Source: Acholeplasmataceae bacterium (GTDB lineage: Bacteria; Bacillota; Negativicutes; Acidaminococcales; Acidaminococcaceae). Taken from it: DNA of 32,977 bases. The notes beneath the pieces are model-generated. The model ran no database searches and had not been told where the DNA came from. It worked only from the letters and a program-made list of their open reading frames with translations. Position 1 is the first letter of the stretch. Every line of letters begins with the position of its first letter. The DNA lies in NCBI GenBank assembly GCA_012517145.1, contig JAAYVM010000181.1, positions 1 to 32,977 of the forward strand, given 5' to 3'. The translations under genes and the position numbers were made by a program. Positions 875 to 25,321 of this stretch are shown piece by piece.

Positions 875-927
875 AAAAATTAAAAGCCTTACCTTTGTTG
901 AAAACAAAGGTAAGGCTTTTAATTTTT
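875..927. terminator. Bidirectional terminator between TetR gene and aroQ
   Basis: A perfect 25-bp inverted repeat (875-899 and 903-927) with a GAA loop. Its A-rich and T-rich ends give a U-tract on both strands. It closes the TetR gene on the plus strand and the whole aromatic operon on the minus strand; the aroQ stop codon begins at the last base of the repeat. Confidence 0.93.
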
Positions 928-1385
928 CAATCACGAGGCGGAGTAAAAACCATTTGTTTTTTTAAATTTACTAAAGCGCGCATCGCTAAAGCATAACCAT
1001 CAAAACCTAATCCGCAGATTTGTCCTTTGCAGGCAGGTGCCGTAACAGATTTATGTCTGAATTCCTCTCTTGCGTGAATATTACTGATATGCACTTCTAT
1101 TGCTGGAAGTTTTACAGCTTTCAACGCGTCCAATAGCGCTATGCTATAGTGCGTATAAGCTGCCGGGTTAATTACAATACCGTCAGCATCCCCGTAGGCA
1201 TCTTGAATAAAAGATACTAATTCACCCTCGCAATTACTTTGCTTGATTTCCACTTCAATGCCAAGTTCCTGCGCAGCGGCCTTAATAAACTGGCAAAGAG
1301 CTACGTAATCATCAGATCCATAAATGGCGTTCTCTCTTACCCCCAACATATTGATGTTAGGCCCGTTTAAAACCAGTATTTTCAT
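927..1385 (-). CDS. aroQ: 3-dehydroquinate dehydratase, type II
   Basis: Converts 3-dehydroquinate to 3-dehydroshikimate, step 3 of the shikimate pathway, in the cytoplasm as a dodecamer. The 152 residues show the family signature from the first residues: LNGPNINMLGVRE, the catalytic Tyr in IYG, INPAAYTHYSIAL, and EVHISNIHAREEFRHKS with the catalytic His. The length is normal (about 145-155). The frame is open to 1451, but the ATG at 1385 is the start: it overlaps the aroK stop as ATGA and has AGAAGGTGG just upstream. The longer version would only add an unrelated 22-residue leader inside aroK. It is the last gene of the operon. Confidence 0.95.
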   Translation of the reverse strand: MKILVLNGPNINMLGVRENAIYGSDDYVALCQFIKAAAQELGIEVEIKQSNCEGELVSFIQDAYGDADGIVINPAAYTHYSIALLDALKAVKLPAIEVHISNIHAREEFRHKSVTAPACKGQICGLGFDGYALAMRALVNLKKQMVFTPPRD

Positions 1386-1882
1386 TTTTCCACCTTCTTT
1401 ATAATATTCAGTATTTCGCAGACAACAGTTTCCGGTTCTCCATTGTTGCAAACTGCAAAGTCCTTATATTTTTGGTATAAAGCATAACGTTCTTTATACA
1501 ATTCAAAAATATGCTGGCTCCCAGCCGCCAATAATGGTCTGCTCGCAACATCCACATCAGCGCAAATTAACTCCGGGCTGCGATCGATAAAGATGATGAT
1601 ACCAGTTGTTCTTAATAACTCCATGTTTTTCGCTCTTTTGACGACGCCACCGCCGGTTGCTATGACCAGGTCGCTTGCAGCTGAGAGTTTCTTGATTGTT
1701 CTGGACTCTGCCTCCCGAAAGGTTTCCTCACTCACCGCGAATAATTCCTTAATAGATTTGCCTTCCCACTCTTCCAGGAGATGATCTGCATCACAAAAAT
1801 TTCGTTTCAATTTATCTGCCAAAATTTTTCCTATTGTTGTTTTGCCGCTGCCTGGCATTCCAATTAATACGATATTTTTCAT
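1382..1882 (-). CDS. aroK: Shikimate kinase
   Basis: Phosphorylates the 3-hydroxyl of shikimate with ATP (step 5). The 166 residues contain the Walker A motif GMPGSGKTT (about 8-16), a DAD shikimate-binding motif near 32-34, the FREAES segment, the glycine-rich ATGGGVV substrate loop near 75-81, and the lid with SRPLL. This is a standard single-domain AroK. Both ends overlap neighbours by 4 bp (ATGA), with aroE upstream and aroQ downstream, so the three genes are translationally coupled. Confidence 0.95.
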   Translation of the reverse strand: MKNIVLIGMPGSGKTTIGKILADKLKRNFCDADHLLEEWEGKSIKELFAVSEETFREAESRTIKKLSAASDLVIATGGGVVKRAKNMELLRTTGIIIFIDRSPELICADVDVASRPLLAAGSQHIFELYKERYALYQKYKDFAVCNNGEPETVVCEILNIIKKVEK

Positions 1883-2703
1883 TGCTGCTCACCGCTTATT
1901 GCCTCAGCAATCTTCACAATAATTTTGTCCTCAATTTTACGTTGCAGCCAAATTTCTTCAGCAGCTACTGCTTGGGCAACCAGCATCAATAAGCCATTGG
2001 CTGCCAACTTGCCTTCTTCACGAGCATAACGCAAAACAACTGTTTCCACAGGATTATAGATTAAATCAACAACGGCAGCAAAATTGGCAACAGCTTCGCG
2101 TGATACCGGTGAAGCTTTTACATTGGGAAACATACCTAACGGCGTGCAATTTATCAAAACATCTCCGCGTTGGCCGGCAAACTCTTCATAATCGCAGAAT
2201 TGCAAAGGAACTGTCAGTTGCATTTCCAACAAATCAGCTGCTGCTTGCTGTGGATTGCGTGAAACAACAAAAATTTCTCTTGCTGCATTATCATTTAAAT
2301 ACTGCAAAACAGCTCTGGCCGCTCCACCAGCACCTAAAACAGCAATTGTTTTATTCTTTACTTCAATACCGTTATAGCTCAGCAAAAAACCAAAACCGTA
2401 ATAATCAGTATTGTACCCTTTGACTTCACCATCTTGAAAAGAAATAGTATTAACTGCGCCTATCGCTGCGGCTTCTTTTGTTATACTGCTCAAGCAAGGT
2501 ATGACTGCCGTCTTGTAAGGGATAGTAACATTCATTCCATCTAAATCATCTTTTGCTTGCGAAAGAAACAAAGGTAATTTCTCTCTTTCAACCTCAAGCA
2601 AGGAATAATCTCCCTCGATATTCAATTCTCGAAATATTAAATTGTGTATTTTGGGTGAAAGGCTATGTCCAAGTTTTTCTCCCAATAGGCCAAATCTTAC
2701 CAT
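1879..2703 (-). CDS. aroE: Shikimate dehydrogenase (NADP+)
   Basis: Reduces 3-dehydroshikimate to shikimate (step 4). The 274-residue protein shows GEKLGHSLSPKIHN for substrate binding near the N-terminus, the catalytic Lys in NVTIPYK, GAVNTI, GYNTDYYGF, the Rossmann loop VLGAGGAARAV, SRNP where NADP phosphate is bound, NCTPLGM, and a C-terminal NGLLMLVAQA helix. The length is normal. The start ATG lies 42 bp after the pheA stop and its ribosome site is a run of Gs rather than a clean AGGAGG. Its stop overlaps the aroK start. Confidence 0.95.
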   Translation of the reverse strand: MVRFGLLGEKLGHSLSPKIHNLIFRELNIEGDYSLLEVEREKLPLFLSQAKDDLDGMNVTIPYKTAVIPCLSSITKEAAAIGAVNTISFQDGEVKGYNTDYYGFGFLLSYNGIEVKNKTIAVLGAGGAARAVLQYLNDNAAREIFVVSRNPQQAAADLLEMQLTVPLQFCDYEEFAGQRGDVLINCTPLGMFPNVKASPVSREAVANFAAVVDLIYNPVETVVLRYAREEGKLAANGLLMLVAQAVAAEEIWLQRKIEDKIIVKIAEAISGEQQ

Positions 2704-2745
2704 AGCGACGCCCCCAGCCTTAAGAATCTCTTTACAATAATTTTC

Positions 2746-3888
2746 TTATATTTTGTCACCGACGTAATTGCCTAAAACTTTACAGTAAGTACTGCTGTTT
2801 TCGACTTCCGCAATTGCTTTTTTAACATTTGCATCGTGCAGATTGCCACTGACGTCAATATGGAAAAAGTATTCCCATGGTTTACCTTCGATAGGTCTGG
2901 ACTCAATATTCAGCATGTTCAGCCCGTTATGGTAAAAACTTCCCAGCATATGATACAAAGACCCTGGCTCGTGTTTTAAAGAAACAACAAGGGTAATTTT
3001 ATCTGCATTAGGAATTTCCTGCATTTCACTCGCAATGACAAAGAAACGCGTGTAATTGTATGTATTGGCATTAATATTGCTGGCAAGAATTTCCAAACCA
3101 TATAGTTCAGCAGCCTGTCTCCCAGCCACGGCGGCCATATAGTCTGTTTTCTTAAAGCTTACAAGTTCCGCTCCTTTAGCTGTATTAAAATAAGGGATCT
3201 GCATCATTTTTGGATACTGTTTAAAAAATGGGCGACACTGCGCAAAGCCTTGTGGATGAGAATAGACCTCTGTAACTTTGTCAAGTGAAGTGCCAGGATA
3301 AGCCAGCAAATTATGTTCTATTTTCACGCATATTTCGCCAACAATATGACAGTCATAACGGCGTACAAGATCATAAACTTCAGTAATACCGCCGGTAGAA
3401 GAATTTTCGATAGGCAGTAAGCCATAGGTGACCTCGCCTTCTTTCACTGCCTGCGCTACATCTTCAAACAAAGTGTAATTATGTTCTTCAATATTGGCAC
3501 CAGCAAAATATTTATGCAAAGCAAGATGGCTATAGGCACCCGGAACTCCTTGGTAACCAACAAATATTTTTGCACCATGCGGCTGAGCTGCAGCTTTTGA
3601 GGAAACTTCACTTTGCAAATATTCTTCTTCCTGACGACAGCTTATATCTATAATCTGGGCCATTATTTTTCTTAGGCCATCTGCATATGCAGAATTCTGA
3701 ACGCGCTTTTTGCAATTGTTTAAAACAATTTCTTCACGCGCCTTATCTCTGACAGGCAGTTGTTTTGTTTTCTTGTATTCAGCTACCTCATGAACAGCAT
3801 TCATACGCTCTTCAAAAAGTTTCGCTATCTCAGAATCGATCTTATCGATTCTTTCACGTATTTCTGCTAAATTTAGTTCTTTCATCAT
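2746..3888 (-). CDS. pheA: Bifunctional chorismate mutase / prephenate dehydratase (P-protein)
   Basis: Turns chorismate into prephenate and then phenylpyruvate, the committed Phe branch. Three parts are visible in 380 residues. Residues about 3-90 are an AroQ-type chorismate mutase helix bundle (IRERIDKIDSEIAKLFEERM). Residues about 108-285 are prephenate dehydratase (GYQGVPGAYSH, LLPIENSSTGG, and the catalytic NYTRFFVI). Residues about 295-375 are an ACT domain (EPGSLYHML, ESRPIEGKPW), which in this family binds Phe for feedback inhibition. The first ATG overlaps the aroC stop as ATGA and has GGTGA upstream; a second ATG follows directly. Confidence 0.95.
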   Translation of the reverse strand: MMKELNLAEIRERIDKIDSEIAKLFEERMNAVHEVAEYKKTKQLPVRDKAREEIVLNNCKKRVQNSAYADGLRKIMAQIIDISCRQEEEYLQSEVSSKAAAQPHGAKIFVGYQGVPGAYSHLALHKYFAGANIEEHNYTLFEDVAQAVKEGEVTYGLLPIENSSTGGITEVYDLVRRYDCHIVGEICVKIEHNLLAYPGTSLDKVTEVYSHPQGFAQCRPFFKQYPKMMQIPYFNTAKGAELVSFKKTDYMAAVAGRQAAELYGLEILASNINANTYNYTRFFVIASEMQEIPNADKITLVVSLKHEPGSLYHMLGSFYHNGLNMLNIESRPIEGKPWEYFFHIDVSGNLHDANVKKAIAEVENSSTYCKVLGNYVGDKI

Positions 3889-4985
3889 TTCACCATCAAT
3901 TTCGTATCAGACATTAAAAGCATATCTAAAACTATCCAGGCTGCAACGCCTTCAATAACAGGCACCGCACGCTGCACGATACAGGGATCATGACGCCCGG
4001 CAATCTGCAGTATAGTATTTTCGACTTTGGCCAGATTTACGGTTGTCTGTTGCTTTCCGATTGAAGGGGTTGGCTTGATGCCAACTTTGAATATCACTGG
4101 CATACCATTGGTAATACCGCCGAGTATGCCACCATTATTGTTTGTTTTAGTTCTGACAACGCCTTCCTCCAGATAAAACGAATCATTGGCTTCAGAGCCC
4201 AGCATGGAGCTCAAAGCAAAACCGGCGCCAAATTCGAGCCCTTTTACTGCTGGTACGGAGAAAAGCGCATGCGCTAACCTGCTCTCAACCGAGTCAAAGA
4301 AAGGAGAACCAATCCCCGCAGGTAAGCCTTGAACGATGCATTCAATACTACCACCAACAGAATCGGCCTGTTCACGCACTTTCAGAATCATGTCCTGCAT
4401 CTTTTCGCCTTGTTCATCATCAAGAACAGGCATAGTTTTTGATGCCAGAGAGTTCAAAATTTCCTCGTTTTCACCCAGAGGGTTGAACAATGAGTCCCTG
4501 ATACCATAAATCTCGGCTATATGCCCTCCCACTTTTATGCCCTGAAGTTCAAGGATCTGTTTGGCCAAAGCACCTACGAAAACAAGCGGTGCAGTGAGAC
4601 GTCCGGAGAAATGACCGCCGCCGCGGTAATCGTTAAAACCATGATATTTTATTCTACCGGAATAATCAGCATGTCCCGGGCGCATTACATCTTTCAGAAG
4701 GCTATAATCACCGGAACGTGTATCACTGTTCGGTATAAGAGCACAAATGGGAGTACCTGTTGTTTTCCCTTCAAAAAACCCGCTTTGAATAATAAACTCA
4801 TCTTTCTCTTTTCTCGGCGTCGACATAAGGTTTTGTCCGGGTGCTCTTCTTTTCATCTCTTGCAAAATAGCAGCCGTATTTATTGTCATTCCTGCCGGTA
4901 AGCCATCAATTACTATTCCGATAGCTGGGCCGTGCGACTCGCCAAAAATAGATACTTTTATTTTCTCACCGTGTATACCGCTCAT
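3885..4985 (-). CDS. aroC: Chorismate synthase
   Basis: Makes chorismate from EPSP (step 7), using reduced FMN. The 366 residues carry FGESHGPAIG near 14-23, RAPGQN, TRSGDY, RPGHADY, the RGGGHFSGR flavin/phosphate loop, NNGGILGGITNG and the C-terminal GRHDPCIVQRAVPVIE. The length is normal. The chosen ATG is preceded by an in-frame TGA and only a weak ribosome site. A much stronger AAAGGAGG lies about 55 bases further upstream (5039-5046) with no sensible ORF after it. It overlaps pheA by 4 bp and follows nhaA after a 117-bp gap, the largest gap inside the operon. Confidence 0.95.
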   Translation of the reverse strand: MSGIHGEKIKVSIFGESHGPAIGIVIDGLPAGMTINTAAILQEMKRRAPGQNLMSTPRKEKDEFIIQSGFFEGKTTGTPICALIPNSDTRSGDYSLLKDVMRPGHADYSGRIKYHGFNDYRGGGHFSGRLTAPLVFVGALAKQILELQGIKVGGHIAEIYGIRDSLFNPLGENEEILNSLASKTMPVLDDEQGEKMQDMILKVREQADSVGGSIECIVQGLPAGIGSPFFDSVESRLAHALFSVPAVKGLEFGAGFALSSMLGSEANDSFYLEEGVVRTKTNNNGGILGGITNGMPVIFKVGIKPTPSIGKQQTTVNLAKVENTILQIAGRHDPCIVQRAVPVIEGVAAWIVLDMLLMSDTKLMVK

Positions 4986-5102
4986 AGTTTTTCTTCAGCG
5001 AGTTCCAGAATAAAATTTTAGCACCTCGCCAAATCTATCCTCCTTTCACTTTTCAGCAATTGTTATTTCTATTAATCAAATGTATTATTTTCTTCCTGCA
5101 TA

Positions 5103-6437
5103 TTAACAATTATTACTCTTGCTTTTATTGGGAGCAACGTGCTTCAAGAAGGCCAAACCAACTAAAGCTGAGCAAAACGAGCCGACTGCAATTCCGATTT
5201 TAGCTGAATCAGCCGCATGTTGGCCATCGAAAACCAAGCTCGTCATAAACAGTGCTATTGTGAAACCAATTCCTGCAATGATACCCGCTCCAAAAATATG
5301 GTTCCAGGTAACATCCTGAGGCGGCGAAGCAATTTTAAGTAAAGTGGTAATTCTCGCCATTGCATAAATGCCAAGAGGCTTACCAACGAACAAGCCCATA
5401 AAGACGCCAATTGTTACCGTTGAAAATATTTCTGTTTCAGCCGAGAAAGTAAGCCCTGAATTTACAAATGCAAAAAACGGTAAAACAAGGTAATGAACAA
5501 AGGAATGAAGACCTACTTCCATTTTAGTCAAAGGAGTGAGTGCCCTTTCCGAAAGTTCCCCAATTGTAAAAATAGATTCCTTTGCCTTTTCGTCAGTCAA
5601 AATATTAACTCGCGATTTCTCTGAAATAATCAATTTTTTTAAATGATTACGTGAACGTTTTACATAGTCATGAAAAGCAACCTTGGGTTTTACCGGAATC
5701 ATCATAGCGGCTAAAACCCCAGCTATGGTTGGATGTATCCCAGATTTAGCAACAGCAATCCACACGAGTACAGATAATAAAGTATAGGCGAAAGTAGACC
5801 GTATGCCTATTTTATTAAGAATGTACATTAGCCAAAGAAATAAAACAGCAAAACCAAGTGGCACCAAACTAAGTTGGCTTGTATAAAGAATACCAATTAT
5901 AATGATGCCAATAATATCGTCAGCAATTGCCAACGTGGTCAAAAAAACCTTCAGTCCTATCGGTACAATTGAACTAATCAAAGACAAAACAGCGAGACTA
6001 AATGCGATATCCGTTGCAGTTGGAATAGCCCAGCCGATAACATTTGGACTGTTATGATTAAAAAGAAAATAAATTATTGCCGGGGCCATAACACCGCCCA
6101 CTGCCGAAACAACCGGAAAAAGAGCCATCTTGACTTTTCTTAAATGGCCCACCAAAATTTCTCTTTTGATTTCAAGTCCCACCAGAAAAAAGAAAAACAC
6201 CATCAGTCCATCATTTACAACATCTAAAATACTATGTGTATTGACATAGGATCCCATAGATATAGTGATAGGCATATGAATAAAATCAAAATAATATTTT
6301 TTGTATGGTGAGTTAGCAAACACCATTGCTAAAAATACACAAAATACCAGCAGCATACCTCCGAAAGACGGAGACTGCATGATTTTTAGGGTTCGTTTTA
6401 AAAATGAGTATTTGTACTTATTGTAAAGTTCTTCCAT
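5103..6437 (-). CDS. nhaA: Na+/H+ antiporter NhaA
   Basis: Exports Na+ in exchange for protons across the inner membrane for pH and salt balance. The 444 residues form roughly 11-12 membrane helices. The ion-binding residues are clear: the adjacent Asp pair in LAIADDIIGI (about 173-174), an Asp in ATDIAFSLAV (about 143), and the conserved FFFFLVGLEIKRE and GIGFTIALFMTSL segments. A ribosome site AGGGGGAG precedes the ATG. It lies between aroA (50-bp gap) and aroC (117-bp gap) on the same strand, with no terminator or convincing promoter on either side, so it is probably co-transcribed with the aromatic genes. No direct metabolic link to the pathway is known to me. Confidence 0.96.
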   Translation of the reverse strand: MEELYNKYKYSFLKRTLKIMQSPSFGGMLLVFCVFLAMVFANSPYKKYYFDFIHMPITISMGSYVNTHSILDVVNDGLMVFFFFLVGLEIKREILVGHLRKVKMALFPVVSAVGGVMAPAIIYFLFNHNSPNVIGWAIPTATDIAFSLAVLSLISSIVPIGLKVFLTTLAIADDIIGIIIIGILYTSQLSLVPLGFAVLFLWLMYILNKIGIRSTFAYTLLSVLVWIAVAKSGIHPTIAGVLAAMMIPVKPKVAFHDYVKRSRNHLKKLIISEKSRVNILTDEKAKESIFTIGELSERALTPLTKMEVGLHSFVHYLVLPFFAFVNSGLTFSAETEIFSTVTIGVFMGLFVGKPLGIYAMARITTLLKIASPPQDVTWNHIFGAGIIAGIGFTIALFMTSLVFDGQHAADSAKIGIAVGSFCSALVGLAFLKHVAPNKSKSNNC

Positions 6438-6487
6438 AGGCTCCCCCTAATAAATATTTCTTGTCTTGTCCGCAAATCTCATACATT

Positions 6488-7789
6488 TCAATCCTTTTCC
6501 ATATATGAAATTTGCCCGCCAAGAGCAACAAAGTCAGGCCAAAATTGAGGATACGACTTGTTAACACATTCAGCACCATGCATAACCACTCTATCACGGC
6601 ACTTTAAACTAGCTATTGCCAATGACATTGCAATACGGTGATCGTTCCATCCTTCCACTTCACCGCCAGTAAGATACTTTTTACCTTGTATAACCAATCC
6701 TTCTTCTAGCTCTGTTACATCAGCTCCCAATTTATTAAGCTCAGTAGTTACGGCTCTCAGACGATCACATTCCTTCAGTCTTAACCTACCTGCATTTATA
6801 ATTTCTGTTCTTCCTTCACTTACAGAGGCCAACACGGACAATACGGGTATTATATCAGGGCAGTCACTGGCATCAATAATAGTGCCAATTGTATTTGCAG
6901 GCGAAGATGTTATAATCATTTTCTCTTCATTATAATTAATTTTGCCGCCCATTGCAGAAATAATATCTATTATAGCCTTATCGCCTTGCAACGAATTTGC
7001 TAAAAGACCTTTGCAATCAATCTTGTTTCCAATTGCTCCCGCCACAAGCCAAAACGCAGCTTGTGAATAATCAGCTTCAACAATAGAATTCCTGCTATGA
7101 TATTTTTGCCCGCCACGAATATAGAACGCTTTGTATTCGTCGTTTTTTATTTCTATGCCATATTTTGCAAGGCATGAAAGCGTAAGCGCAACATAGCTCT
7201 TTGACTCAAGCGGCGAACTTATGGTAATCACTGAATCGTCATCCAGAAGAGGCAATGCAAATAATAAACCGCTGACAAATTGAGAACTTACATTACCCGG
7301 CAATTCAAACCTACCTGCAGAAAGCCTGCCGCAGATTTTTAGCGGTAATTTCCCCTCATCAGCTGTTTCGTATTCAATTCCCTGCCGGTCAAAAATATCA
7401 TAATAAGCATTGAGCGGTCTGGAAACAAGTTTGCCACTTCCCTTAAAAACCACTTGCTTGCTGCACAAAGCAGCTAATGGTATCATGAAGCGCAAAGTTG
7501 ATCCAGACTCACCACAATCAATTTCATTTGATAAAGCTTGTAATTCTCCGCCCTCAATTTTGAAAGCGGCCCTGCCAGGATACAAAGACGGCGCAGGCGT
7601 TATCTTTACACCAAGAGCTTGCAGTGCACGACAAGTGGCCTCAATATCTGCAGAAATACTAATATTATCCACTACAGAAGTTCCTTCTGCCAAAGCGGCA
7701 CATATTATTTCTCTATGTCCCATACTCTTTGAAGAAGGAACGTTGATCTCCCCTGACAGCGGCACTGGTTTAATGCTTATAGTGTCCAT
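6488..7789 (-). CDS. aroA: 3-phosphoshikimate 1-carboxyvinyltransferase (EPSP synthase)
   Basis: Condenses shikimate 3-phosphate with PEP (step 6). In 433 residues: PSSKSMGHR near 19-27 for substrate binding, GESGSTLRFMIP near 92-103, SSQFVSGLLF, DYSQAAFWLVAGAI, LRLKECDRLRA and WNDHRIAMSLA. The phosphate loop reads GESGSTLRF, not the GNAGTAxR of the E. coli-type enzyme, so it belongs to a divergent Firmicutes-like branch. I do not infer inhibitor sensitivity from this. The AGGAGA ribosome site overlaps the aroB stop codon 9 bp upstream, a sign of coupling. Confidence 0.95.
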   Translation of the reverse strand: MDTISIKPVPLSGEINVPSSKSMGHREIICAALAEGTSVVDNISISADIEATCRALQALGVKITPAPSLYPGRAAFKIEGGELQALSNEIDCGESGSTLRFMIPLAALCSKQVVFKGSGKLVSRPLNAYYDIFDRQGIEYETADEGKLPLKICGRLSAGRFELPGNVSSQFVSGLLFALPLLDDDSVITISSPLESKSYVALTLSCLAKYGIEIKNDEYKAFYIRGGQKYHSRNSIVEADYSQAAFWLVAGAIGNKIDCKGLLANSLQGDKAIIDIISAMGGKINYNEEKMIITSSPANTIGTIIDASDCPDIIPVLSVLASVSEGRTEIINAGRLRLKECDRLRAVTTELNKLGADVTELEEGLVIQGKKYLTGGEVEGWNDHRIAMSLAIASLKCRDRVVMHGAECVNKSYPQFWPDFVALGGQISYMEKD

Positions 7790-7798
7790 AACATTCTC

Positions 7799-8860
7799 CT
7801 ATCCGATATAATGCGTCAAATCTTTATATGGTATTTTCAATAATCTGCTCTTGCCGATTTTCTCTAAAATAACAATAGTTATTTCGCCGCCTTTTTTCTT
7901 TTTATCCAAGGCGATAGTTTTCAGCACTTCTTCTTTTTCCATTACGGCTTCGGTAGGCAGGCCATAATGTTGCAAAACATCTTTAATCAACGTAGTTGAA
8001 CCTTTTTCTGTAATACCCAATTGTTCGGTCTTACCAGTCAAAGCAACCATACCAATTCCTACGCCCTCACCATGCGTATACGTTTCGTAATTATAGTATT
8101 TTTCCACTGCGTGGCCTATTGTATGGCCAAAATTCAGCACCATACGTTCACCTGTATCGAACTCATCATTTTCAACTATTCGAGCTTTAATTTCACAGCA
8201 TTCTTTGATGATAACTTCAATATTGGCTAAAAGCTCTTCATCATCCTTAATTCCCTGTAGTTTTGCAAAAAGATCTGCACTGCGTATGCAGCCATATTTT
8301 ATCGCCTCCGCCAAGCCATCATGCAAATAACGCTTGGGTAAAGAAGTAAGAAGATCAGGATCAATGAGTACACCTAATGGCTGATAAAAACTGCCGACAA
8401 GGTTTTTGCCGGTTGGAAGGTCAATTGCAACTTTGCCACCGACACTGCTGTCTATTTGTGCCAAAAGAGAAGTCGGCACCTGAATAAAATCAATACCACG
8501 CAGGAAAGTTGCTGCAGCGAAACCGCCTAAATCGCCAGGGACGCCGCCGCCAAAAGTTATGACCAAATCACTTCTCGTCAAACCAAATGCTGCCATTCTT
8601 GCATAAACATCCCCAAGGGTTTGTAAAGTCTTGCTCTTTTCCCCTGGTTCAATTACAATCCGCTCGACAATAAAATCAGACTCTTCTAAGGTTTTCTGCA
8701 GTTTAGCACCATATAAAGAATCAACGTTTGCATCAGTAATAATTGCTGCCTTGCCAGCCTTGGATAGTTTTCTTGCTTCCTTACCCATTGCCGCCAATAA
8801 TCCTTTTTCAATTTTTATGTCATAAGATCTTTTATCCAAATTCACTGTTACCTTATGCAT
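7799..8860 (-). CDS. aroB: 3-dehydroquinate synthase
   Basis: Cyclises DAHP to 3-dehydroquinate (step 2), using NAD+ and a divalent metal. The 353 residues show EPGEKSKTL, ITFGGGVPGDLGGFAA (NAD loop), RGIDFIQVPTSLLAQIDSSVGGK, GKNLVGSFYQP, GLAEAIKYG and the metal ligands in NFGHTIGHAVE and YTHGEGVGIGM. The length is normal. It overlaps the end of tyrA by 8 bp and has AAGGAAGG upstream of its ATG. Confidence 0.95.
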   Translation of the reverse strand: MHKVTVNLDKRSYDIKIEKGLLAAMGKEARKLSKAGKAAIITDANVDSLYGAKLQKTLEESDFIVERIVIEPGEKSKTLQTLGDVYARMAAFGLTRSDLVITFGGGVPGDLGGFAAATFLRGIDFIQVPTSLLAQIDSSVGGKVAIDLPTGKNLVGSFYQPLGVLIDPDLLTSLPKRYLHDGLAEAIKYGCIRSADLFAKLQGIKDDEELLANIEVIIKECCEIKARIVENDEFDTGERMVLNFGHTIGHAVEKYYNYETYTHGEGVGIGMVALTGKTEQLGITEKGSTTLIKDVLQHYGLPTEAVMEKEEVLKTIALDKKKKGGEITIVILEKIGKSRLLKIPYKDLTHYIG

Positions 8861-9716
8861 TATATAAAGCCTTCCTTTTCATTGCAGCAGAACGCATCAT
8901 AGACTTAAGTTTTTCAGCATCATTTTTTTCTAAAGCCTCTGACCAAAGAGCCAATTCTTCTTTGAACATTTCTATTTCTGCAAGAACATTAGCCCTGTTG
9001 TACAAAAACAAGTCCGTCCATAGTTCAGCATTAATATCAGCTACCCTCGTTGCATCCCTGAAACTACCGGCAACGAAAAACCTGGTATCGTCGTTCATTG
9101 ATTTGCTGTTAACGAGCGCTACCGCTAATAGGTGCGGCAAATTACTTGTATAAGCGATGATTTTGTCGTGTTGTTCCTTAGTAACCTCAACGGTTCTTTT
9201 GCATCCTAACGCCATAGCCAGCGACTTTAGCCATTCCACGTTTTCTCTGTTATTATTCGGTCCTGGTACAACTATATAATTAGCCCCATTAAAAATCTGT
9301 TCTGATGATTGGCTGAACCCGCTGCCTTCCTTGCCTGCCATCGGATGCCCAGAAACAAAATCCATATCTTTCCCCAGCAACGGAGCAATACGTTCAATCA
9401 TGTCACCCTTAATACCTGCGGCATCAGTAAGTAATACAGAGGCTTTGAAATTTCCAACATTTTTTTTGACAAACTCAAAAATGGAAGCAGGATACACAGC
9501 AAAAATAATGACATCCGCTTCCTTCAAATTTTCATCAGGCAAAGCACAAGGTGTATCAATAACACCTTGTGCTTTTGCCTGTGACAAAATATCTTTATTG
9601 GAATCCACTGCTATAATTTTTTTTACACCCAGCAGGCGCAAGGCCTTTGCGTATGACCCACCAATGAGGCCCAGCCCTACGATACAAAACACCAGGTTCT
9701 TAAATTCTTTATCCAT
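8853..9716 (-). CDS. tyrA: Prephenate dehydrogenase (Tyr branch)
   Basis: Oxidatively decarboxylates prephenate to 4-hydroxyphenylpyruvate with NAD(P)+. The Rossmann loop GLGLIGGSYAKAL lies at about 14-26, followed by the family motifs SGHPMAGKEGSG, TKEQHDKIIAYTSNLPHL and FRDATRVADINAELWTDLF. The 287 residues contain only the catalytic domains and no C-terminal ACT domain, so feedback control is more likely at DAHP synthase or by attenuation. The start is ambiguous. The ATG at 9716 has AGGTAGG 9 nt upstream, but an in-frame TTG at 9737 also has a good site (GAGGTGA) and would add 7 residues. It overlaps aroB by 8 bp. Confidence 0.93.
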   Translation of the reverse strand: MDKEFKNLVFCIVGLGLIGGSYAKALRLLGVKKIIAVDSNKDILSQAKAQGVIDTPCALPDENLKEADVIIFAVYPASIFEFVKKNVGNFKASVLLTDAAGIKGDMIERIAPLLGKDMDFVSGHPMAGKEGSGFSQSSEQIFNGANYIVVPGPNNNRENVEWLKSLAMALGCKRTVEVTKEQHDKIIAYTSNLPHLLAVALVNSKSMNDDTRFFVAGSFRDATRVADINAELWTDLFLYNRANVLAEIEMFKEELALWSEALEKNDAEKLKSMMRSAAMKRKALYNA

Positions 9717-9801
9717 GCTACAAAACCTACCTGTCAAAAAGACTCACCTCATTATTTTTAACGCTTCATTACAATTCTACCATTCTACAAAGCTACCTTT
9801 T

Positions 9802-9807
9802 ATTATA
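9802..9807 (-). promoter_or_regulatory. Possible internal promoter before tyrA (-10 only)
   Basis: A perfect TATAAT lies in the 136-bp gap between the second aroF and tyrA, but the -35 region at proper spacing is poor (TTTTAA). If active it would give the lower operon some transcription independent of the attenuator. Weak evidence. Confidence 0.25.
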
Positions 9808-9852
9808 CCCTAAAAACAAGGTAATTAAAATTCACTTTTCATTTAAATTTAT

Positions 9853-10866
9853 TCAAATTTCACGCCCAACTATTTTCGCTATGCCTCGTAAATCATCCAT
9901 AAGAGAGGCAAACCTTTCAGGCTTCAAAGATTGGGCGCCATCGCACCATGCATTTTCGGGATCGTTATGTACTTCAATCATCAAACCATCCGCTCCAACA
10001 GCGACAGCTGCTTTGGCGAGCGGTTCGACCATCCACCACATGCCTGCTGCATGACTTGGGTCCACAATGACCGGCAAGTGGCTAAGCTTCTTAACTGCAG
10101 GAATAGCGCTCAAGTCCAACGTATTACGAGTGTAAGTTTCATAAGTACGAATACCGCGCTCACAAAGAATTACATTTTCATTGCCGCCCGACATTATATA
10201 TTCAGCTGACATAATCCACTCTTCAATAGTTGCAGCGAGGCCTCTTTTCAACAGAATCGGCACTTTGGTCTTCCCGAGCTCTTTCAATAACTCGAAATTC
10301 TGCATATTGCGAGCCCCAACCTGAATCAGGTCAACATCTTCAACAAATTTTTCGATTTTGTCCGCGGACATGATTTCAGTTACTATGGGCAGGCCATTAG
10401 CTTCACCAGCAGCCCTCAGCATACCCAAACCTTTTTCTTTCAGTCCTTGGAAGGAGTATGGCGACGTGCGGGGTTTGAAAGCACCACCACGCAGCATGGT
10501 AGCTCCTGCAGCCTTTACCGATGCCGCTACCGAATTCATTTGTTCATCGGTTTCAATAGAGCAAGGCCCTGCAATTACCACCAACTTCTTGCCGCCAACC
10601 TTCACACCGCTGACATCAATAATGCTGTTTTCCGGATGAAACATGCGGTTGGCGCGCTTGAAAGGCTCCTGCACACGCATGACTTTTTCCACATAGTCGT
10701 TGACAGTAATACGTTTGGGATCGAAAGCACTGGTATCACCGATTACACCAAGAATAGTCATATTAACGCCAACAATCTCATTAATCTGAAATCCTTCCCG
10801 CAAAAGCATTTCTTTTAGTTTTTTGGATTCAGCTTCTGGTGCTCCGGGCTTCAATACAATGATCAT
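9853..10866 (-). CDS. aroF: DAHP synthase, type I-beta, second copy
   Basis: Condenses PEP with erythrose 4-phosphate, the entry step of the pathway. The 337 residues comprise an N-terminal ferredoxin-like regulatory domain (about 1-70) and a TIM barrel with IAGPCSIET, GGAFKPRTSPYSF, QVGARNMQN, LLKRGLAAT, VDPSHAAG and the C-terminal IEVHNDPE. It is a tandem paralogue of the copy at 10928-11941: the barrels are nearly identical, whereas residues about 10-50 of the regulatory domain differ strongly. In this subfamily that domain binds Tyr or Phe for feedback, so the copies may answer to different amino acids (inference). GAGGAG precedes the ATG, and the gap to the first copy is 61 bp. Confidence 0.95.
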   Translation of the reverse strand: MIIVLKPGAPEAESKKLKEMLLREGFQINEIVGVNMTILGVIGDTSAFDPKRITVNDYVEKVMRVQEPFKRANRMFHPENSIIDVSGVKVGGKKLVVIAGPCSIETDEQMNSVAASVKAAGATMLRGGAFKPRTSPYSFQGLKEKGLGMLRAAGEANGLPIVTEIMSADKIEKFVEDVDLIQVGARNMQNFELLKELGKTKVPILLKRGLAATIEEWIMSAEYIMSGGNENVILCERGIRTYETYTRNTLDLSAIPAVKKLSHLPVIVDPSHAAGMWWMVEPLAKAAVAVGADGLMIEVHNDPENAWCDGAQSLKPERFASLMDDLRGIAKIVGREI

Positions 10867-10927
10867 AATCTGTTTCTCCTCTGCGAAATATTTTATTTGT
10901 GCTTTTTACAGCTTTGATAACAAAGTA

Positions 10928-11941
10928 TCACAATTCCCTGCCGACAATCGGTGCTATATTCTTCAGGTCTTGCATCAAATTTGCAAAGCGCTCAGGTTTC
11001 AAGGATTGAGCGCCGTCACACCATGCATTTTCCGGATCGTTATGTACTTCGATCATGAGCCCGTCTGCTCCGACAGCAATTGCTGCTTTAGCGAGCGGCT
11101 CTACCATCCACCACATACCAGCCGCATGGCTCGGGTCTACTACGACAGGTAAATGGCTAAGCTTCTTAACTGCAGGTATGGCACTTAAATCAAGAGTATT
11201 ACGTGTGTAAGTTTCGTAAGTGCGAATGCCGCGTTCGCAAAGAATAACATTTTCGTTGCCGCCGGCCATGATGTATTCAGCAGACATAATCCACTCTTCA
11301 ATAGTAGCAGCGAGACCTCTTTTCAACAGAATAGGTACCTGTGTCTTACCGAGTTCCTTCAGCAATTCGAAGTTCTGCATATTGCGTGCGCCAACTTGTA
11401 TTAAGTCCACCTTGCCAACAAATTGGTCCAATTTGTCAGCAGACATTATTTCCGTTACTATTGGCAGTCCATTCTTAGAGCCTGCTTCGCCAAGCATATC
11501 AAGTCCTTTTTCTTTCAAACCCTGGAAAGAATATGGAGAAGTACGGGGTTTGAAGGCGCCGCCGCGTAACAGTGAAGCACCAGCCTCTTTGACGGATTCA
11601 GCTACAGAATTCATCTGTTCATCAGTTTCAATTGAACAAGGACCTGCTATTACCGCTAACTTTTTGCCGCCAATTTGTACGCCACCGACATTGACAACTG
11701 TGTTTTCCGGGTGGAACATGCGGTTGGCACGTTTAAAAGGTTCTTGCACACGCATAACTTTTTCCACATAATCGTTGACCGTAATGCGCTTAGGATCTAT
11801 CATGCTGGTGTCACCGACAACACCGAGGATACAATAATTTAAACCCTTACTAACATTAATATAAAAACCTTGTTTTTCTAAACTTTCCTGGACTTTTACA
11901 GCTTCTGCATCAGGCGTTCCCGGTTTCATTACGATAATCAT
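10928..11941 (-). CDS. aroF: DAHP synthase, type I-beta, first copy
   Basis: First structural gene of the aromatic operon and first enzyme of the shikimate pathway. The 337 residues have a ferredoxin-like regulatory domain (about 1-70) and the catalytic barrel: GPCSIET from about 100, GGAFKPRTSPYSF about 127-139, QVGARNMQN about 182-190, VDPSHAAG and IEVHNDPENAW. The ATG has AAGGTGA 7 nt upstream and lies about 65 bases after the attenuator hairpin, so its expression should depend on read-through. It is the same length as the copy that follows; see that entry for how the two differ. Confidence 0.95.
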   Translation of the reverse strand: MIIVMKPGTPDAEAVKVQESLEKQGFYINVSKGLNYCILGVVGDTSMIDPKRITVNDYVEKVMRVQEPFKRANRMFHPENTVVNVGGVQIGGKKLAVIAGPCSIETDEQMNSVAESVKEAGASLLRGGAFKPRTSPYSFQGLKEKGLDMLGEAGSKNGLPIVTEIMSADKLDQFVGKVDLIQVGARNMQNFELLKELGKTQVPILLKRGLAATIEEWIMSAEYIMAGGNENVILCERGIRTYETYTRNTLDLSAIPAVKKLSHLPVVVDPSHAAGMWWMVEPLAKAAIAVGADGLMIEVHNDPENAWCDGAQSLKPERFANLMQDLKNIAPIVGREL

Positions 11942-12004
11942 ACTAACATCACCTTTTACCTTATATTTTTATTTTTTAGATAACTGATTCAGTGTTTTGA
12001 ACAA

Positions 12005-12037
12005 ATAAAAAAGCAGGCTCCGTAAAAGAGCCTGCTC
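12005..12037 (-). terminator. Intrinsic terminator in the leader of the aromatic operon (attenuator)
   Basis: On the minus strand, AGCAGGCTC (12036-12028) pairs with GAGCCTGCT (12020-12012) around a 7-nt loop, then a run of Ts with a single A. It sits 37 bases after the leader-peptide stop and about 65 bases before aroF, the position expected of an attenuator. I looked for an alternative antiterminator pairing by eye and found no convincing one (only a 5-bp CGATG/CATCG stem abutting it). Confidence 0.85.
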
Positions 12038-12074
12038 GATGACAACATTACATATCAAGAATTAATATCCATCG

Positions 12075-12212
12075 CTACCTTTTTCGGCCTCTATTCACGC
12101 TAATTGAGCTATTCAGTTGATTGCATGCAAAATACCAAGTGCTAAAGTAATAGCCTTGGTTAAAAGTAAACGCATATTCAACTGTCCAATTTTGCATTAA
12201 TTTAGCTTCCAT
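12075..12212 (-). CDS. Aromatic-rich leader peptide of the aro operon (45 aa)
   Basis: A short ORF between the operon promoter and the intrinsic terminator. It starts ATG at 12212 with AGGTGG (12220-12225) 7 nt upstream, and ends TAG at 12075. Of residues 9-28, ten are aromatic: Trp 9 and 26, Tyr 13, 21, 22 and 27, Phe 15, 17, 23 and 28, including the runs YYF and WYF. The remaining residues are ordinary, and the tail is basic (RGRKR). This is the classical design of ribosome-mediated attenuation, in which stalling at scarce aminoacyl-tRNA lets transcription pass the terminator. Having all three aromatic residues fits control of a common pathway. No homology is known to me; the function is inferred from content and position. 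Confidence 0.85.
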   Translation of the reverse strand: MEAKLMQNWTVEYAFTFNQGYYFSTWYFACNQLNSSISVNRGRKR

Positions 12213-12254
12213 TTTGTAGCCACCTGATACATATTTTTTGGATTAATTGTTGTT

Positions 12255-12283
12255 ATCTTACCTTGCACCAATAGACTTGTCAA
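12255..12283 (-). promoter_or_regulatory. Sigma-A promoter of the aromatic operon
   Basis: A perfect -35 TTGACA (12278-12283), a 17-nt spacer and -10 TAAGAT (12255-12260). The start of transcription should be near 12248, giving a leader RNA of about 36 nt before the leader peptide and about 240 nt to the end of the attenuator. Confidence 0.85.
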
Positions 12284-22776: not shown

Positions 22777-22874
22777 AAGATATGCAAATACCAATAAAAC
22801 ATACGAATGCTACATGCAAAGTATCTGCGACAATAATCCCTTCTCCATCACACGTGGATCAACAGTGATTGTTA

Positions 22875-23022
22875 AACGGGCAGTTCTCCTGACTCAGCTT
22901 CATTGCTATCCTACCTTCCCGAAGAAATCTTCAGTGGTAAATCAGGAATCGCTCAGCATTACAGTGGCGGGACCGTAGCAGACTTTCACTGCTTTCTCTA
23001 TTGAGTATCAAATACACCCGTT
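22875..23022 (-). promoter_or_regulatory. Cobalamin riboswitch upstream of cbiK
   Basis: Read on the minus strand it carries the conserved cobalamin aptamer blocks in order: GTGAAAGTCTGC, ACGGTCCCGCCACTGTAA, the CCACTG element, GGGAAGG and GAGTCAGGAGAACTGCC. The closing P1 helix AACGGG/CCCGTT (23017-23022 with 22875-22880) is perfect. It regulates cbiK and probably the porin behind it. No clear promoter is visible between the btuB stop and the aptamer, nor a terminator, so read-through from btuB may feed it. The rest of 22697-23061 holds only the expression platform. Confidence 0.93.
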
Positions 23023-23061
23023 CCATCCATATTTTATTTTTAAGAATCAATCAAATCTCGG

Positions 23062-25072: not shown

Positions 25073-25143
25073 ATAAAAGCATACAAAGGCCCTTTAGGCG
25101 CGTGCTTCACTTTCCCATCTCTCGCAGGTTAAGCGTAAAACAT

Positions 25144-25296
25144 AATCAGGCAGTTATTCTGGCTCAGAATCATCGCTTGCTTCGCCTTCCCAAGTCTCTA
25201 AACTCAGTGGCATTTTGAAGCTCGCTCCTCTTTACAGCGGCGGGACCGCATCGGCTTTCAACCGATTTCTCTTTTAAGCGTTTGGTGCACCTGACT
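25144..25296 (-). promoter_or_regulatory. Cobalamin riboswitch upstream of btuB
   Basis: On the minus strand: AGTCAGGTGCACC at the 5' end, GAAATCGGTTGAAAGCCGA, GCGGTCCCGCCGCTGTAA, ATGCCACTGAG, GGGAAGGC, and GAGCCAGAATAACTGCC at the 3' end. P1 pairs TCAGG (25290-25294) with CCTGA (25146-25150). Together with the promoter at 25322-25350 and the terminator at 25046-25072 this is a complete transcriptional riboswitch. It fills most of the gene-free stretch 24979-25475. Confidence 0.94.
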
Positions 25297-25321
25297 ACTT
25301 ACATATTAAGTTTACGTGTTA

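Follow-up and report, generated by a model that had tools for sequence, protein, structure and literature searches.

The locus analyzed here poses the question of how an operon of shikimate pathway genes is regulated in a member of the Acidaminococcaceae whose genome is rich in T-boxes. Between a promoter-like site and an intrinsic terminator ahead of the operon there is a 45-codon open reading frame that is crowded with aromatic codons. A first-pass annotation, made from the sequence by itself, had proposed that this frame is a leader peptide whose translation controls transcription of the operon. The comparative evidence indicates that the leader element is real and very probably functional.

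The leader region and the downstream operon

The window, i.e. the entire stretch of DNA analyzed, is 32,977 nt long, and the leader and operon are on its minus strand. A sigma-70-type promoter is predicted at positions 12255–12283, with a -35 sequence TTGACA (12283–12278), a 17-nt spacer and a -10 sequence TAAGAT (12260–12255). The site has 10 of 12 consensus matches in a consensus scan of the minus strand, and a TTGAC...TAAAAT-like sequence can be seen by eye at the equivalent place in relatives. The leader open reading frame, which has homologues in relatives, is at positions 12075–12212 with its ATG at 12212, and its 45 codons have the translated sequence MEAKLMQNWTVEYAFTFNQGYYFSTWYFACNQLNSSISVNRGRKR. 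It is preceded by a Shine-Dalgarno sequence, AGGUGG, at 12220–12225; GGCGG or GGTGG is found at the equivalent place in relatives. All ten aromatic codons are within positions 12188–12129 and encode Trp 9 and 26, Tyr 13, 21, 22 and 27, and Phe 15, 17, 23 and 28. The intrinsic terminator and its U tract are at 12005–12037, where a stem of 11 pairs (12037–12011) is followed by a T-rich tail. The promoter, ribosome site, 45-codon frame and terminator of the first-pass annotation are thus all in place on the minus strand, and its count of two Trp, four Tyr and four Phe in residues 9–28 is exact.

The density of aromatic codons was compared with that of forward open reading frames after the 485-nt intergenic region had been shuffled 5000 times with its dinucleotides preserved, the statistic being the number of aromatic residues per 20. 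The shuffled frames have a mean of 4.4 and a maximum of 9 aromatic residues in 20, and none of the 5000 reaches the native value of 10. Formation of the leader open reading frame by chance is excluded.

The Rfam T-box model (RF00230) gives no match in the leader region at gathering scores, which agrees with the absence of a T-box motif remarked on earlier, and no other Rfam family matches it at these scores. No Rfam, Pfam or NCBIfam model matches the leader, and Rfam is also negative at 20 related loci. The best sub-threshold match, to the Rfam L20_leader model, is at 11999–12087 of the minus strand (score of 26.5 bits where the cut-off is 58.7, E-value = 0.003 in a 359-nt search); it probably represents a shared terminator shape.

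The operon that follows, assigned from NCBIfam matches and contiguity, is aroF-aroF-tyrA-aroB-aroA-nhaA-aroC-pheA-aroE-aroK-aroQ at positions 927–11941, and its intergenic gaps range from -8 to 145 nt. After the attenuator the next strong terminator is at 924–878 with no strong one in between, and the consensus scan of the minus strand shows no promoter-like site from the terminator to aroF. Leader control of all eleven genes is suggested because the operon is contiguous, and this is a weaker conclusion than those on the leader itself. The first-pass annotation had counted eleven genes under control; the number is correct, however one of them, nhaA, encodes a Na+/H+ antiporter and is not a shikimate gene. 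The nhaA gene (5103–6437, minus strand) sits between aroA and aroC with no obvious metabolic reason. The two aroF genes (9853–11941, minus strand) are 84% identical; aroF is similarly paired in many members of the family and single in some. The sequence at 878–924 is an extended, almost perfect inverted repeat that carries runs of T on both strands, and is likely a bidirectional terminator that closes the operon.

Distribution of the leader and conservation of its codons

The first search, with the 45 amino acid peptide alone, found short open reading frames directly ahead of aroF in many relatives, and a leader profile (A1) was built from the frames of 26 of these. The profile matches 51 of 59 Acidaminococcaceae genomes, and in most of the matching genomes that were inspected the leader homologue is upstream of aroF. 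Comparison with named GTDB loci identifies the family as Acidaminococcaceae, related to Phascolarctobacterium. The eight unmatched genomes include genus g15, which has no aroF match or a fragment only, and genus g7, where the leader is decayed; some of the others are incomplete. Across the Negativicutes the profile matches 103 of 380 genomes at E ≤ 0.01, about a quarter, a figure in which absences may be profile misses. The inspected Negativicutes leaders end 77–314 nt ahead of aroF where that gene falls within the fetched stretch.

When the 450 nt preceding aroF were inspected in other Firmicutes independently of the profile, the same peptide (FYFSWGYFYFSAGYFFCKK) was found in Clostridium species as well as in one bacterium each of the Peptococcaceae and Eubacteriaceae; it was not found in the same 450 nt in Erysipelotrichaceae and Alkalibacterium. 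Clostridia were also sampled by an even draw of genomes across the phylum. The leader is present in 12 of the 398 genomes drawn, eight of which are from outside the Negativicutes, and in all eight it is ahead of aroF. As judged from these homologues, conservation of the leader extends over much of the Negativicutes and into parts of the Clostridia, and the leader is nearly always ahead of aroF. In some Negativicutes, leaders of the same family precede aroK, aroA-aroC-aroK, aroE-aroK, pheA-aroK or tyrA (genes named from sequence). The leader is found ahead of several different shikimate genes and is therefore an element of the pathway rather than an accident specific to one gene.

Two further loci display unusual arrangements. 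In locus L277 (G039 C1:1817000–1824900) the leader, aroF and tyrA appear to be duplicated in tandem; one aroF copy has stop codons, and there is a third leader. In locus L276, around 5150–5746 (G344), a second leader of the family precedes a short ACT-domain-like protein and no shikimate enzyme.

Codons of the leader core were compared with positions numbered backward from the core end. Columns -8, -7, -6, -2 and -1 are 81%–100% aromatic, in the family and in other clades alike. Within these columns TAT and TAC are switched synonymously and Phe and Tyr interchange, whereas the non-aromatic codons drift among relatives. An alignment upstream of aroF had been suggested earlier as a check on whether the aromatic codons are kept while the others drift, and this is the pattern observed.

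The first-pass annotation further held that all three aromatic aminoacyl-tRNAs are sensed at once. For Phe and Tyr the comparison agrees, as practically every leader core has codons for both. Trp codons are optional in the family, being present in 26 of 49 leader cores, however they are found in 59 of 64 leaders outside the family. Sensing of all three tRNAs is plausible from this distribution, and is also in keeping with the position of aroF, which feeds all three aromatic branches. The closest competing explanation is that the same attenuator reads Phe and/or Tyr only, the Trp codons being either fortuitous or present because UGG fits the stems of the RNA, and its likelihood is put only slightly below even. 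Besides the irregular presence of Trp in the family, it draws on the location of both Trp codons of the window in pairing segments, Trp 26 in the 3′ stem of hairpin H1 and Trp 9 in segment 1 (both described below), and on the Corynebacterium glutamicum leader aroR (Phe-Tyr-Phe), which is described as responding to Phe limitation and not to Tyr availability (PMC11802643).

Hairpin H1, alternative pairings and the proposed attenuation

The Ser codon at core position -5 is AGC in 70 of 71 cases despite variable Gly codons at -3, which is a hint of an RNA constraint. A hairpin, H1, is predicted here at positions 12134–12160 (minus strand) and comprises ACCAAGGCUA, a loop UUACUU that carries aromatic codons, and UAGC-A-CUUGGU. 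The native core RNA is more stable than its synonymous recodings (mean z of -3.0 in the family and -3.4 elsewhere), with z about -1.0 once the recoded codons are drawn from core usage. In an alignment of 58 sequences, 87.9% of H1 cells are paired, as against 25%–44% in slid controls. There are 34 double-sided changes, and the covariation score is reached by none of 500 shuffles.

H1 bears on the possibility of a nascent-chain arrest peptide, in which stalling would be caused by the peptide itself rather than by codon supply, possibly with the help of a free aromatic amino acid as a TnaC-like co-ligand. This was considered on account of the Ser, Gly and Ala residues, non-aromatic and yet conserved between classes. 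The hairpin accounts for these residues, i.e. the Ser codon is almost invariant, recodings are far less stable and stem changes are compensated; in addition, Phe and Tyr interchange freely. The arrest peptide was largely rejected on the H1 evidence and is now regarded as improbable. Conserved non-aromatic residues in a leader peptide can thus be RNA structure in disguise rather than the mark of a functional peptide.

The antiterminator could not be seen by eye in the first-pass annotation. Its 5′ strand, CGUGAAUAGAGGCC, is placed at 12099–12086 by folding, a swap scan, pair counts and geometry; it forms the 3′ part of segment 2, starts 29 nt downstream of the last aromatic codon (codon 28) and stops 8 nt short of the stop codon. 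Its partner is segment 3, GGCUCUUUUACG, at 12021–12032, which belongs to the 5′ arm and loop of the terminator and was located by folding, the swap scan and pair counts. When the transcript ends in the terminator loop (at 12018), the minimum-energy structure has CGUGAAUAGAGGCC paired with GGCUCUUUUACG, and when the 3′ arm of the terminator is added the terminator is favored over the antiterminator. Terminators are present in nearly all of the relatives' leaders.

An unrestricted duplex search of the post-core region against the terminator arm proved too permissive and was replaced by positional scans with swapped partners. Among 101 leaders, native antiterminator-terminator pairs exceed swapped pairs most at +24 to +48 past the core, by -2.2 ± 0.3 kcal/mol, and the signal is about 0 for windows that adjoin the core and for those from +40 onward. 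In the family, pairing is found in 83.8% of antiterminator cells, versus 38%–58% when the strand is slid; covariation is modest, with six double-changed cells. The strand reads CGUAA..AG.GCC in Acidaminococcaceae and AAUGAGU or CAUGAG elsewhere, and the terminator loops change to match. A MAFFT alignment of the mixed antiterminator fragments misplaced the motif and was left out of the pair counts. The terminator pair count is weak because loop lengths differ, and was likewise left out of the evidence.

A second pairing is predicted upstream. Segment 1 (12171–12197), in the first half of the open reading frame, pairs with the 5′ part of segment 2 (12097–12130), which overlaps the start of the antiterminator strand. 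Both are supported by constrained folds and by the native-versus-swapped scan, made for segment 1 in two separate sets. The pairing follows a nested order, i.e. +0 to +20 with about -58 to -32, +14 to +34 with -74 to -48, and +24 to +44 with -82 to -64, and in the family and the other clades, taken separately, the native-over-swapped signal amounts to about -2 to -3.5 kcal/mol. In the constrained folds of the window, AUGC/GCGU, AAUUGGA/CAAUU and CAGUUG/CAACUG together build an extended stem that is capped by H1, and this pairing shares only about 3 nt with the antiterminator strand. For want of a visible 1:2 pairing, it had been considered that untranslated RNA reads through; this was dropped once the positional scan revealed segment 1.

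The open reading frame, its conservation, the alternative pairings and their spacing are computed results, and the 1:2 and 2:3 pairings are supported by the comparison between genomes. The spacing in the window is compatible with the classic scheme, and constrained folds in which an assumed ribosome footprint is masked give the antiterminator with the ribosome at codons 22–28 and the terminator with the ribosome at the stop codon; these are consistency checks, not proof. The partial transcript of the window still folds the antiterminator when it is unconstrained and without a ribosome, and therefore energies alone do not settle the default state of the untranslated RNA. About 28% of all leaders have a stop codon that lies over 60 nt downstream of the core. 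A ribosome at such a stop codon would therefore be off the antiterminator strand, and 1:2 would have to re-form behind it.

The mutually exclusive hairpins that had been asked for as a check, antiterminator versus terminator together with an upstream 1:2 pairing, and the kept aromatic codons both support the earlier reading of the leader as a ribosome-mediated attenuator. With high confidence, the leader appears to be a classic three-state transcription attenuator, and its translation very probably decides transcription of the operon. In the scheme that follows, the ribosome footprints, stalling, termination efficiency and relevant tRNAs are those that we infer. The leader RNA would start near 12249. 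If it is not translated, segment 1 can pair with segment 2 in a structure capped by H1, and the terminator (3:4) would form. If charged aromatic tRNA is plentiful, the ribosome would proceed to the stop codon, which is 8 nt beyond the antiterminator strand, and cover that strand, so that the terminator would end transcription near 12005. If an aromatic aminoacyl-tRNA is short, the ribosome would stall on codons 13–28 and keep 1:2 open. The strand 12099–12086 would then be free to pair with the terminator's 5′ arm and loop (2:3), and the polymerase would enter the shikimate operon.

A T-box, a TRAP-type or another protein- or ligand-binding leader, with the open reading frame incidental, is very unlikely. 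T-boxes are common in the same genome, where the RF00230 model finds 18 strong ones elsewhere, however the Rfam searches of the leader and its related loci are negative and the open reading frame is the best conserved part, with conservation at the codon level. Least likely of all is a small functional protein, or a chance frame, before an unregulated terminator: the leader frames are short and have no annotation of their own, but they precede shikimate pathway genes and are absent where aroF is absent, the alternative RNA structures are conserved, and the shuffles exclude chance.

Relation to known attenuators and to the T-boxes of the genome

The trp, pheA, his and ilv attenuators of enterobacteria operate by a 1:2/2:3/3:4 logic, and the ilv leader is an example of one leader that carries codons of several amino acids. 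The ribosome-mediated attenuator proposed here would share this logic with a different peptide and RNA. Unlike the enterobacterial leaders, it has its control codons in an extra hairpin, the apical H1, and these codons cover Phe, Tyr and Trp.

The aroR-aroF attenuator of C. glutamicum is ribosome-mediated and has been studied experimentally (Neshat et al. 2014, as described in PMC11802643). According to that description it is similar to the present leader in that a leader with Phe and Tyr codons precedes a DAHP synthase operon under transcription attenuation; it differs in having three aromatic codons, a response to Phe alone of these two amino acids, and a location in Actinobacteria. Stav et al. 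(2019; PMC6429828, Fig. 6b), who surveyed five genomes including that of Clostridium novyi, mention two candidate uORFs that contain Phe and Tyr and are located at shikimate genes. These resemble the present leader as short frames with Phe and Tyr codons before shikimate genes, however the main text of that paper gives no mechanism, pairings or regulon for them. From the figure legend, they may be the Clostridium branch of the leader family, already glimpsed. The uORFC-13-1 motif upstream of aroF, for which Phe-dependent attenuation was proposed (Brewer et al. 2021; PMC8632094), has the same order of uORF, terminator and aroF. It differs in that its 24 representatives are from Acholeplasma and environmental sequences only and have at least one Phe codon, and it is not described as a 1:2/2:3/3:4 system.

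The His leader attenuators of Firmicutes are likewise cases of leader-peptide attenuation where T-boxes might be expected; they differ in having runs of His codons, his or hisS genes and occurrence in narrow groups (PMC2965389; PMC9413887). As of 2010, leader-peptide attenuation of the ordinary type was not known outside Proteobacteria and Actinobacteria (PMC2965389). A literature search, with subscription papers outside its reach, found no description of such a leader in Negativicutes, nor of its regulon or RNA mechanism. Leader-peptide attenuation is regarded as rare in Firmicutes, and the present leader, conserved in two of its classes, is wider and better conserved than expected there, although the kind itself (a trp/pheA-type attenuator) is known. 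Its RNA anatomy has been worked out computationally, and it has no Rfam entry.

The genes downstream of the T-boxes of this genome include tyrS, pheS, trpE and a TrpB-like gene. Single-amino-acid genes of this genome therefore have T-boxes, and the common pathway has a peptide reader. This suggests that a leader peptide may have been retained, in a genome with T-boxes, since one peptide can read several tRNAs at once. As a tentative proposal, to which we give not quite even weight, the leader may act as an OR gate that reads Phe-, Tyr- and Trp-tRNA, and may be the shared regulator of shikimate operons in two classes of Firmicutes, with T-boxes, for one tRNA each, running tyrS, pheS and trpE. 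The element may then date to the split of the classes or have travelled with aroF. Two cobalamin riboswitches are also present in the window, at 22862–23036 and 25132–25309 of the minus strand.
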